A stretch of DNA of 26,570 nucleotides, from IMG/VR virus record IMGVR_UViG_3300030406_002326, positions 1 through 26,570 of that record; one strand, given 5' to 3'. The notes under the pieces are model-generated. The model did no database searches and was not told the origin of the DNA. It was given only the letters and a program-made list of their open reading frames with translations. Positions 24,134 to 26,570 of the stretch are shown piece by piece (positions within the stretch are counted from its first letter, which is position 1; the number at the start of each line of letters is the position of its first letter). A program made the translations under genes and the position numbers. The stretch comes from a virus.

Positions 24134-24164
24134 AAAAAAAAAGGAGGGCGTGAGAACCCCCCTT
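24134..24164 (-). terminator. Intrinsic terminator after the capsid gene
   Basis: On the minus strand AAGGGGGG (24164-24157) pairs with CCCTCCTT (24148-24141). This is an 8-bp stem with one G-U pair and an 8-nt loop, followed by a run of about 9 T. It starts 10 nt after the capsid stop codon. T7 has its terminator T-phi at the same place between genes 10 and 11, where partial read-through lowers tail-gene expression relative to capsid. The same use is likely here. Confidence 0.88.
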
Positions 24165-24174
24165 ATAAATATGA

Positions 24175-25356
24175 TTAACCGAATGCAGCTGGCTTAGTTG
24201 TTGTTCCAGCGAACAATTCAACAGCAGCAGCTGGGTTAAGATAGTCTGCGCCCATTGCTAGACGTCCGAGGATAACATCACCTTGGTAGATGACTGATAC
24301 GTCCCCAGAAGTTGTTTGAACTTGAGGTCCAATAGCTTCAACAACACCTGCAGCTTCTCTTTGGAAGATAAGTCCACATGAGTTTTCAAAGTCTGAAGTA
24401 CCATTACCGTAGTTATTAACGGTCTTAACTGAGGTATTACCTGCAGTCTCATCAACCATTTCAACTTCAACGAAGTCACCCTTATTACCTGGATCGGTAA
24501 CACCTGGGTTAGTTCCTGAAGCTGTTCCGAACTTAGTACCGTAGCGTCCGAAGAATGGAATGTTCATTGACTTGTAGATCTTGATGCCTGCAATCTCAAC
24601 GATTCCTTGTCCTTTCTGACGTGCTGTACCTTGCTCGTCTCTATTTACAAGTCCGTTCTCACCGACCTGTTGGATTAGTTCATAGTATTGGCGTGGGTTT
24701 AATACACCTACACGACCTTCAGTAGAAACTCCCTTCTCATCTAATGCAGCAGCTGCATCATAGAAGCCGTTTATGAGGCATTGAGCATCATAAGCAGCTG
24801 TACCATCAGTAACTCCACTTCGAGTTAATTGAATCTGAGTTCCACCTGGTTCCTTATAGTTTGTCTTAGTAATAGGTGAAGCTTTTCTTGCAGCTTTGGT
24901 TACAGCTTGGAAGATCTTTCTATCATACTTCTCAGCGAGAGCATAACCGATCTTACGAGAAATTTCTCCACGTAGGTCATAGTGGGCAAGTGTCTCATCG
25001 AGCTCATAAACGAATGCACTGGAGATGAGTAAGTCATCAACTGTGATCGTCTTCTCAGCTACTGGAGGTGCACTGTCACTATTACCTAGTATTGAATTTC
25101 CTGGTGTATGATATTCAGCAGTTGTGCGTCCTGTATAAATGAACTGTAAAGACTTACCGTTCTTTATGGTACGCTTCATAACTAGATCTCTAGCAATTGT
25201 GTTATGCTGGAAACCTTTGAACATCTCACCAGAAAATAGCTTAAGGTACAGTGCTCTACGGGAACCTTCTCCTGCTACGTAGGATAGATCACCGTTATTA
25301 GCACCTGGACCTGTTAACAGAGCGGTATTAGAACCACTCGTAGTTTGATGTGCCAT
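24175..25356 (-). CDS. Major capsid protein (T7 gp10A-like)
   Basis: The 393-aa protein begins MAHQTTSGSNTALLTGPG. ALYLKLFSGEMFKGFQHNTI, ARDLVMKRTIKNGKSLQFIY, GRTTAEYHTPGN and DDLLISSAFVYELDETLAHY are typical of the T7 gp10 / HK97-fold capsid family of cyanopodoviruses. Length matches the family (T7 gp10A 345 aa, cyanopodoviruses slightly longer). The ATG follows a 17-codon leader ORF with no spacer and has no clear Shine-Dalgarno. Codons appear more C-ending and optimised than in neighbouring fibre genes, as expected for the most abundant virion protein; this is an impression, not a count. A terminator follows directly. Confidence 0.95.
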   Translation of the reverse strand: MAHQTTSGSNTALLTGPGANNGDLSYVAGEGSRRALYLKLFSGEMFKGFQHNTIARDLVMKRTIKNGKSLQFIYTGRTTAEYHTPGNSILGNSDSAPPVAEKTITVDDLLISSAFVYELDETLAHYDLRGEISRKIGYALAEKYDRKIFQAVTKAARKASPITKTNYKEPGGTQIQLTRSGVTDGTAAYDAQCLINGFYDAAAALDEKGVSTEGRVGVLNPRQYYELIQQVGENGLVNRDEQGTARQKGQGIVEIAGIKIYKSMNIPFFGRYGTKFGTASGTNPGVTDPGNKGDFVEVEMVDETAGNTSVKTVNNYGNGTSDFENSCGLIFQREAAGVVEAIGPQVQTTSGDVSVIYQGDVILGRLAMGADYLNPAAAVELFAGTTTKPAAFG

Positions 25357-25410
25357 TTATATGGATTTTAAATAAAGTTTATATAATTTTTCAGCTGATT
25401 TGTTGCGCAT
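25357..25410 (-). CDS. Putative 17-aa leader peptide abutting the capsid gene
   Basis: ATG at 25410 opens MRNKSAEKLYKLYLKSI and the TAA directly precedes the capsid ATG in the same frame. The peptide is basic and predicted helical. Its start lies in a short hairpin-forming stretch (GTGG...CCAC, 25412-25425). It could bring ribosomes to the capsid start, which has no Shine-Dalgarno of its own. Chance is possible for so short a frame, so confidence is low. Confidence 0.4.
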   Translation of the reverse strand: MRNKSAEKLYKLYLKSI

Positions 25411-25426
25411 GTTGTGGTCTATCCCA

Positions 25427-25438
25427 CCGTCTAGACGG
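25427..25438. repeat. Perfect 12-nt palindrome in the capsid leader
   Basis: CCGTCTAGACGG is self-complementary over 12 nt and lies between the tRNA and the capsid leader ORF. It could be a dimeric protein site or a stem in the mRNA. It sits next to small imperfect hairpins, CCTG-TACG-CAGG (about 25452-25463) and GTGG-GATAGA-CCAC. Confidence 0.6.
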
Positions 25439-25471
25439 CTAATGGTATCCTGCGTACAGGGCAAAAGCCAA

Positions 25472-25542
25472 AGCGAGATATCGGAATCGAACCGATGACA
25501 ATAGCTTGGAAGGCTACAGTTTTACCGCTAAACTAATCTCGC
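25472..25542 (-). tRNA. tRNA-Gly (anticodon UCC)
   Basis: All four arms pair. The acceptor is GCGAGAT/ATCTCGC, the D arm GTTT-AGCGGTA-AAAC, the anticodon arm GTAGC-CTTCCAA-GCTAT (anticodon TCC) and the T arm ATCGG-TTCGATT-CCGAT. The length is 71 nt with discriminator T, and CCA is not encoded. It resembles cyanobacterial tRNA-Gly(UCC), which reads GGA and GGG codons. It lies inside the late transcript between the auxiliary cassette and the capsid gene, in the sense direction. Besides raising a glycine tRNA, RNase P and 3' processing would cut the transcript here. Confidence 0.95.
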
Positions 25543-25566
25543 TTGCACAATGTGGATGAGCTTTTC

Positions 25567-25598
25567 TATGATAGTTGACGTGCAGTATCTCTATCATA
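25567..25598 (-). other. 8-bp inverted repeat between hairpin and tRNA
   Basis: TATGATAG (25567-25574) and CTATCATA (25591-25598) are exact inverted repeats with a 16-nt spacer. In RNA they form an 8-bp stem right after the UUCG hairpin. Possible roles are RNA processing, mRNA stability or an operator site; the sequence alone cannot decide. Confidence 0.55.
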
Positions 25599-25606
25599 AT
25601 GAAGAA

Positions 25607-25632
25607 GGCTAGGAGTCCGAAGACCCCTAACC
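25607..25632 (-). terminator. 11-bp hairpin with UUCG tetraloop after the 55-aa gene (terminator or processing site)
   Basis: On the minus strand GGTTAGGGGTC, TTCG, GACTCCTAGCC form an 11-bp stem with two G-U pairs and the very stable UUCG loop. It begins 8 nt after the stop of the 55-aa gene. The tract behind it (TTCTTCATT) is T-rich but broken, so termination may be partial. A 3'-end stabiliser for the psbA-containing message is an alternative. Confidence 0.7.
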
Positions 25633-25640
25633 ATAATTCA

Positions 25641-25808
25641 TTAGCCTGTGAGAGCTTCTTCAAGTGACTGATATTCCTCATCTACACCAGGGGGTTGCTG
25701 ATCACTAGGGTTAGTATCAGGATGGTCCTCTGGTTTGTTATGATGAGCTTCAGGTTCAGGTGAATAGCTTGTCACCGAAGCTCTTCCTTGAGAAGTTTGG
25801 TGTGCCAT
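25641..25808 (-). CDS. 55-aa acidic, probably disordered protein
   Basis: I do not recognise a family. The protein begins MAHQTSQGRASVTSYSPEPE, has a His/Pro/Asp-rich middle (KPEDHPDTNPSDQQPPG) and ends EYQSLEEALTG. It is acidic with no hydrophobic core, so likely disordered except for a short C-terminal helix. Its ATG overlaps the stop of the beta-barrel-like gene (TAATG). The first five residues are those of the capsid protein (MAHQT). Position just before the capsid gene is where T7 places scaffold gp9, but it is far too short to be a normal scaffold. A capsid-associated role is only a guess. Confidence 0.65.
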   Translation of the reverse strand: MAHQTSQGRASVTSYSPEPEAHHNKPEDHPDTNPSDQQPPGVDEEYQSLEEALTG

Positions 25809-26167
25809 TAGAATTTATATTTTGCGCCTATCTTAGTACCATAAGCTGTATCAGTATCTTCATCTGTTACGAATGATACTTCACCATATACAGCAAGCTT
25901 CTCAGTAGCAGCGATGGATACTCCACCTTTACCAGAGAAATCTGTTGTACTATCTACACCATCAGCAGCTTGAAGTGCAGGACCACCTTGAATATAGTAT
26001 CCAAGTTGACCTACATCACCTTCATAACCAATGTGAAGATCAGTTTTTCTAGAAGTATAGTCGCTTCCAGTATAAGATGCGTTTGACTCGGCATTTACAT
26101 AGACGCCAGCCATTGCAGGAGTCGAAGCAAATGAGATTGTAGCTAGGGCTAGTGCAATTGATTTCAT
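25808..26167 (-). CDS. Secreted small outer-membrane beta-barrel-like protein
   Basis: The 119-aa protein begins MKSIALALATISFASTPAMA, a clear signal peptide with cleavage before GVYVNAES. The mature part of about 99 residues alternates hydrophobic and polar residues in strands (TDLHIGYEGDVGQLGYYIQG; KLAVYGEVSFV; YGTKIGAKYKF) and ends in Phe, the usual C-terminal signal of outer-membrane barrels. It would form roughly 6 to 8 short strands, smaller than OmpA-type barrels. Similar short exported proteins occur in other marine cyanophages; function unknown. Placement behind psbA suggests a host-takeover role at the envelope, for example receptor masking, but this is inference. Confidence 0.78.
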   Translation of the reverse strand: MKSIALALATISFASTPAMAGVYVNAESNASYTGSDYTSRKTDLHIGYEGDVGQLGYYIQGGPALQAADGVDSTTDFSGKGGVSIAATEKLAVYGEVSFVTDEDTDTAYGTKIGAKYKF

Positions 26168-26171
26168 TAAT

Positions 26172-26219
26172 TTACTTTTTGTTTTTAGTGTACGTTACAC
26201 CACGATAGGTAAGAGTCAT
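26172..26219 (-). CDS. 15-aa micro-ORF with YRG motif (DUF4278-like)
   Basis: ATG at 26219 encodes MTLTYRGVTYTKNKK and stops 4 nt before the next gene's start. The M-L-YRG-Y pattern is the start of DUF4278 proteins, common in cyanobacteria and their phages. Here only this N-terminal motif is present. It may be a real micro-peptide or a decayed remnant. Confidence 0.5.
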   Translation of the reverse strand: MTLTYRGVTYTKNKK

Positions 26220-26227
26220 TGAGAGTC

Positions 26228-26251
26228 TCCACTATCACAGCCCCGTTCCAT
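26228..26251 (-). other. Possible hairpin downstream of psbA
   Basis: On the minus strand TCACAGC and GCTGTGA can pair over 7 bp around a 10-nt loop, between the AT-hook-like peptide and the YRG micro-ORF. No T-tract follows, so it is not a classic terminator. It may stabilise or regulate the psbA message. Confidence 0.4.
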
Positions 26252-26297
26252 GCTGTGAATTCATGCGTCCTAATAAAAGGATGAACGGACGTGGTGT

Positions 26298-26369
26298 TTA
26301 TTTTTTCTTCGTGCCCTTTATAGGTGGGCGTCCTTTTTGTGTACCGTAAGTACCTTTGCCTTTAGGCAT
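26298..26369 (-). CDS. 23-aa basic AT-hook-like peptide overlapping the psbA stop
   Basis: The ORF starts at ATG 26369 and shares 8 nt with the end of psbA (ATGCCTAA). It reads [19 protein letters not shown] and ends in TKKK. The K-G-R-P-P core is like an AT-hook minor-groove binding motif. Similar tiny MP.G.GTYGS..GRPP peptides recur in marine phages, so this is likely a real gene rather than chance. The role may be DNA binding; this is unproven. Confidence 0.62.
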
Positions 26370-26570
26370 ATTCTTTCTCAGGTAATGCCGCTAAATCTAG
26401 CGGGAAATTGTGTGCATTTCTTTCATGCATTACTTCCATACCTAGGTTAGCACGGTTGAGTACGTCTGCCCAGGTAGGGATAACCTTACCACCTGAATCT
26501 ACTATGGACTGATTGAAGTTAAACCCGTTAAGATTGAACGCCATAGTGGAGACTCCCATACTGGTGAGCC
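26362..26570 (-). CDS. psbA: Photosystem II D1 protein, C-terminal end (5' part outside window)
   Basis: The visible 68 residues read [20 protein letters not shown], then [20 protein letters not shown] and [17 protein letters not shown], the conserved end of cyanobacterial D1. D1 is the core reaction-centre subunit that turns over under light; phage copies keep photosynthesis running during infection. All C-terminal manganese-cluster ligands are present: the H-E pair of MHER (His332, Glu333), Asp342 of LDLA and Ala344, the processed C-terminus. The extension after the cleavage site is only ALPEKEYA, shorter than the usual cyanobacterial one of about 16 residues. The frame continues open off the window; the apparent ATG near 26559 is internal. 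Confidence 0.97.

Follow-up and report, generated by a model that had tools for sequence, protein, structure and literature searches.

T7-like phages require their capsid protein in amounts far above those of neighboring proteins, and the capsid gene of T7, gene 10, has its own promoter. The RNA polymerase of phage Syn5 uses only two promoters, from one of which more than 37 kb is transcribed (PMC3950665). Because there are only these two, a post-transcriptional step is plausible for the dosage of Syn5 capsid protein.

We analyzed a stretch of viral DNA of 26,570 nucleotides from an IMG/VR record (hereafter the window), whose virus has T7-like cyanopodoviruses as relatives by sequence comparison. 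The 284 nucleotides preceding its capsid gene had been predicted to form one intergenic island, in which hairpins, a tRNA, a palindrome, and a leader open reading frame together separate two messages. Half of this interval is instead protein-coding sequence, which rules out a single intergenic device. The remainder appears to belong to a capsid-mRNA leader with two RNA domains, termed D1 and D2 (Table 1).

Table 1. Positions of the operon and leader features in the window
Feature	Position	Strand	Basis or remark
psbA, end only	26362-26570	minus	
Second non-coding gap in the operon	26168-26361	minus	contains Glutamine-II riboswitch
Glutamine-II riboswitch (RF01704)	26234-26290	minus	Rfam scan, 54.1 bits
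Outer-membrane-like gene	25808-26167	minus	Pfam Phage_OMP
orf55	25641-25808	minus	
orf2, conserved 55-aa single-TM protein, phrog_27060 (unknown function)	25514-25681	minus	tblastn; PHROG E 0.0019
11-bp hairpin, UUCG loop, inside orf2	25607-25632	minus	
8-bp hairpin inside orf2	25567-25598 (arms 25567-25574/25591-25598)	minus	
tRNA-Gly(UCC), in D1 slot	25471-25543	minus	ARAGORN; Rfam tRNA
D2, conserved structured RNA domain of capsid leader	25411-25472	minus	covariance model R1; covariation
D2 P1	25466-25469/25437-25440	minus	
D2 P2	25462-25463/25443-25444	minus	
D2 P3, UACG loop	25457-25460/25449-25452	minus	
D2 P4, 12-nt palindrome CCGTCTAGACGG	25427-25438	minus	possible alternative to P1/P5 pairing
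D2 P5, GAUAGA loop	25424-25427/25414-25417	minus	
PAL, palindrome TCAGCTGA	25391-25398	minus	window's version of the variable pre-ATG palindrome
Leader ORF, ATG, 17 codons	25357-25410	minus	stop abuts capsid ATG; probably no gene
Major capsid protein gene, downstream of leader	24175-25356	minus	Pfam Gp10A-like PF21703, E 2.4e-71

The operon and the coding part of the interval

The minus-strand operon runs from the end of psbA through the gap with the Glutamine-II riboswitch, the outer-membrane-like gene, orf55, orf2, and tRNA-Gly to the capsid gene. This gap contradicts the view that the operon is otherwise without gaps. The riboswitch, located between psbA and the outer-membrane-like gene, has a counterpart in many relatives. 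At the other end, a terminator-like hairpin and T-run directly follow the capsid stop codon (24141-24164, minus strand); T7 likewise has a terminator after gene 10.

As a whole, the 284-nucleotide interval folds better than shuffled sequences (z = -2.78; 1 of 200 shuffles was as good). Positions 25514-25640 are the 3' part of orf2, a previously unannotated frame of 55 codons with relatives in 54 loci, representing 49 distinct proteins (tblastn). A Pfam search with orf2 gave no match. Its last 30 nucleotides overlap tRNA-Gly, and it occurs in relatives both with and without the tRNA.

Both predicted hairpins exist, and both reside inside orf2. The UUCG hairpin is more stable than codon-preserving shuffles in the window (z -2.89) and across 40 distinct relatives (mean z -2.79); in 39 of these 40 orf2 sequences the region surpasses its shuffles, and its conservation thus exceeds coding needs. 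The 8-bp hairpin is conserved only partly (z -1.98 in the window; mean z -1.58 for 42 relatives). The expectation that stems would be conserved in relatives therefore holds for the UUCG hairpin and, by covariation, for D1 and D2, and only in part for the 8-bp hairpin.

Partial termination at the hairpins ahead of the capsid gene, as originally predicted, or pausing there, is quite improbable. A pattern scan does rate the UUCG hairpin terminator-like, and TTTTTT follows it in some relatives. However, an intrinsic terminator combines a GC hairpin with a conserved U-tract, and the tract past this hairpin reads TTCTTC in the window, and just 10 of 40 relatives have TTTTTT; termination here is unlikely because the U-tract is not conserved. 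Moreover, the hairpin lies within coding sequence, upstream of the tRNA, and terminator-like sites in the scan occur near chance frequency (2 found, 1.6 expected).

Structure and distribution of D2

The 12-nucleotide palindrome of the original prediction, P4, is real (0 expected in shuffles) and proves to be the center of a larger domain that had escaped description. Aligning relatives around it yielded D2, a block of ~62 nucleotides whose start coincides with the final bases of the tRNA; the window's tRNA ends where D2 starts, its discriminator lying next to D2. A covariance model (R1) built from 24 relatives, with the window left out, finds D2 once in the window with 75.1 bits (E 1.5e-18). 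Stems P1, P2, P3, and P5 all covary. In an alignment made from sequence alone (A2), 98.2% of cells are paired and covariation is 0.360, versus 0.129 when shuffled and at most 0.077 when slid; in an alignment fitted to the D2 model (A3), the values are 98.9%, 0.363, 0.106 (0 of 500), and at most 0.073, all counts being inflated by kinship among the sequences, for which the slid and re-dealt controls correct in part only.

P3, 3-5 bp long, comes in some twenty sequence versions, and nearly all carry a UACG-like loop. The minimum-energy fold of the window reproduces P1-P3, and D2 is not unusual by energy alone (z -0.09). Unpaired bases are near-invariant in an internal loop (C opposite AYAC) and in the GANAGA loop of P5, which suggests that these loops contact a specific binding partner. 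D2 is a previously unnamed RNA family that Rfam lacks: when the window and 16 loci were scanned permissively with Rfam 15, nothing matched D2 or the D1 minihelix described below (tRNA aside). The literature searched, which included few subscription journals, holds no earlier description of the capsid-leader element.

A search with the capsid protein, in which the motif played no part, found D2 before the capsid gene in every untruncated locus (L025, L042, L049, and L076 are truncated). D2 is also present in twenty isolates, including S-RIP1, which has a variant P5. Past the first 80, most loci were picked by patterns containing the D2 motif, so the evidence for the universality of D2 comes from the capsid-protein search and from the isolates. 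Forms in Syn5 and P60 are more divergent, and the model matches Syn5 weakly. Complete genomes each carry D2 once.

Upstream of the capsid genes of roseophages and pelagiphages (L346-L348, L349-L508) lies a core resembling that of D2: C-[4 bp]-U(A/G)CG-[4 bp]-A(C/U)AA(C/U). Of 102 distinct upstream regions, 84 match it by a strict pattern, among them L413, which looks like chance; the matches have at least 11 different stems, and in P2 a G-C pair is exchanged for A-U. This core escapes the D2 model (best E 0.5) and was found by pattern only; homology with D2 is likely. No tRNA-like D1 was recognized next to the core in the pelagiphage and roseophage relatives analyzed. A genome scan for D2 returned 11 stretches, five of them strong model matches (L236, L240, L241, L242, and L246) that are likely cyanophage contigs within marine MAGs and a Prochlorococcus SAG. 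A host origin of D2 was rejected, as these five resemble phage DNA and the other six resemble chance.

P4 varies as a palindrome. Among 203 loci its center, left free in the search pattern, is TA in 178, AT in 19, and TG in 6, and nothing else; the corresponding palindromes are centered on CTAG, CATG, or CTGG. It reads CCGTATATACGG in L041 and is shorter in P-GSP1. Because P4 shares bases with P1 and P5, it may engage in alternative or intermolecular pairing. The spacer that separates D2 from the capsid ATG contains, in almost all genomes, another perfect palindrome of 8-18 nucleotides, in most cases centered 32-38 nucleotides ahead of the ATG; palindromes of at least 10 nucleotides occur in 138 of 173 such spacers versus about 11% of shuffles. 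These palindromes have 16 different central hexamers among relatives, and a few contain G-U wobbles (AUUGUGCACGAU). They do not recur in complete genomes, and PAL was rejected as a copy of a repeated site. The leader ORF also exists as predicted, and its stop abuts the capsid ATG, but the closest relatives (L010-L015) lack it or carry it with a frameshift. A role as attenuator was ruled out, because the ORF is not conserved.

Perfect palindromes such as P4 and PAL, together with the example of the T7 gene 10 promoter, could argue that D2 and PAL are DNA elements, either a promoter for phage RNA polymerase or a site for a dimeric protein. One stretch, GGGATAGACCACAAC, resembles the T7 phi10 start; because it occurs in one copy and shows compensatory variation in its stem, we treat the resemblance as coincidence. 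A phage promoter is expected at several sites per genome, and D2 occurs once in complete phages. In addition, compensatory changes and G-U pairs indicate RNA, the PAL sequence varies from phage to phage, and the known promoter of Syn5 is unrelated (PMC3950665). The Syn5-type promoter ATTGGGCACCCGTAA has only two matches in five complete genomes, each with 3 mismatches and both in NATL2A-133. We consider a DNA element the most far-fetched of the explanations.

tRNA-Gly, tRNA-like structures, and a minihelix in the D1 slot

D1 is located directly upstream of D2, either past the stop codon of the preceding gene or overlapping the end of that gene. In nearly every relative with enough sequence, this slot is filled by one of three structures: a minihelix (the commonest), a tRNA-like structure, or tRNA-Gly. 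In one exception, L021, neither D1 form is present and D2 comes directly after a riboswitch-like stretch.

The complete tRNA-Gly(UCC) of the original prediction is borne out in the window, where a cloverleaf with a UCC anticodon scores 68.7 bits with the Rfam tRNA model against a gathering threshold of 29. The same tRNA occupies the slot in L010-L013, L015, L144, L153, L207, and NATL1A-7. In L107, L127, and L129 the slot holds degenerate tRNAs that have lost the D-arm and kept the acceptor, T-arm, and anticodon arm; ARAGORN makes no call for those of L127 and L129.

P-SSP7, S-TIP37, Syn5, and P60 carry a tRNA-like structure of acceptor stem and T-arm, which, as read from the sequence, takes fuller forms in Syn5 and P60. 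In such T-type D1 elements, a canonical T-loop (UUCGAUU, UGCGAGU, and similar) caps the T-stem, and an acceptor strand 0-1 base past the 3' strand of the T-stem pairs upstream (AAGUGA/UCACUU, AACUGA/UCAGUU, GGUAA/UUACC, GAUAG/CUAUC, and others). In 17 non-tRNA cases, acceptor pairing averages 4.88 versus 3.83 bp, and 0 of 1000 re-dealings reach the score. An acceptor contiguous with the T-stem plus a canonical T-loop, a hallmark of viral tRNA-like structures, is found in 30 distinct cases, real tRNAs included. CCA does not follow the acceptor in the T-type sequences read.

The minihelix, found in 150 loci, has a near-invariant 15-nucleotide loop, CACCUCAGAGUCGGA, and no T-loop. Its 44 distinct stems are 92.9% paired, versus 67.0% when re-dealt (re-dealt maximum 73.7%). 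In L341 (minus strand), a minihelix without D2 lies shortly upstream of psbA (psbA 1319-2398), and D1 is therefore portable.

The tRNA-Gly could have come to lie in the leader while serving in ordinary decoding, with D1 and D2 having another role. It is complete and high-scoring, and tRNAs are frequent in phages. However, the tRNA sits exactly in the D1 slot in every locus where it is seen, and degenerate tRNAs without a D-arm persist there, both of which fit tRNA-directed cutting better than decoding. We infer chiefly from this sharing of one slot by tRNAs, broken tRNAs, and mimics that the role is in processing, and regard decoding as unlikely.

A possibility of more weight, though still a minor one, is that D1-D2 acts on translation as an operator or in the manner of a riboswitch, with D2 loops that bind a phage or host protein or a ligand controlling capsid translation and with P1 and P4 as possible alternative states. 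The near-invariance of the unpaired D2 bases, the occurrence of a D2-like core in phages of three host groups, and the overlap of P1 and P4 on the same CC, with compensatory change in both, would be consistent with such control. Nevertheless, neither an anti-SD nor a terminator platform is seen, D1 stands alone before psbA in L341, and an operator leaves the sharing of the slot by tRNA, mimic, and minihelix unexplained.

Proposed maturation of the capsid message and its relation to known systems

The structures, their covariation, their position, their universality in our sample, and the interchange of tRNA and mimic are observed directly; cleavage, stabilization, and an effect on dosage are what we infer. 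Phage RNA polymerase would make a long message across D1, and host tRNA-maturation enzymes would cut it there, RNase P at the 5' end of D1 and RNase Z or an equivalent at the 3' end. The mRNA for capsid protein would then start at or close to UUGGC, where D2 begins. As a structured 5' end, D2 might stabilize this message, aid its translation, or both, with the outcome that capsid protein is made in excess over its operon neighbors. We give about an even chance to the proposal that D1 is a tRNA-type processing signal that creates a capsid mRNA with D2 at its terminus. Because the tRNA in the window is complete, general tRNA biology predicts cutting at its ends, provided that it is transcribed. 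For the commonest D1, with its 15-nucleotide loop and lack of a T-loop (150 loci), recognition by RNase P or RNase Z is uncertain. Syn5 itself bears a tRNA-like D1 and the D2 core.

A broader proposal, which we hold slightly more tentatively, is that T7-like phages of cyanobacteria generally use a tRNA or its mimic as a signal for maturing their capsid mRNA, and that this signal is coupled to D2, the core of which would extend to phages of SAR11 and Roseobacter. If true, tRNA-style cutting of the leader would explain how one long message supports separate dosages, and the natural series of tRNA, degenerate tRNA, tRNA-like structure, and minihelix could reveal how mimics arise from tRNAs or are replaced by them. 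As a family missing from Rfam, D2 could also mark the capsid gene in abundant ocean phages.

Among known systems, the Glutamine-II riboswitch is likewise a structured RNA, and these phages carry it in the operon that contains the leader, but it is a separate element about 760 nucleotides upstream. Viral tRNA-like structures share with T-type D1 an acceptor-like stem contiguous with a T-arm and T-loop, other arms being reduced or absent; D1 differs in being internal to the mRNA leader of a DNA phage, without a CCA end, rather than genome-terminal. At T7 RNase III sites, as predicted here, cutting of structured RNA by a host RNase separates the messages of a T7-like phage, although the structures differ, D1 being like a tRNA and D2 a short, irregular hairpin whose loops are conserved. 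The proposed leader also resembles the tRNA punctuation of mitochondrial type, in which a tRNA between coding sequences is a cut mark excised by RNase P and RNase Z. In contrast to that system, the phage leader is a single site before the capsid gene, its cutting is predicted, and most relatives have a minihelix or tRNA-like structure in place of the tRNA.
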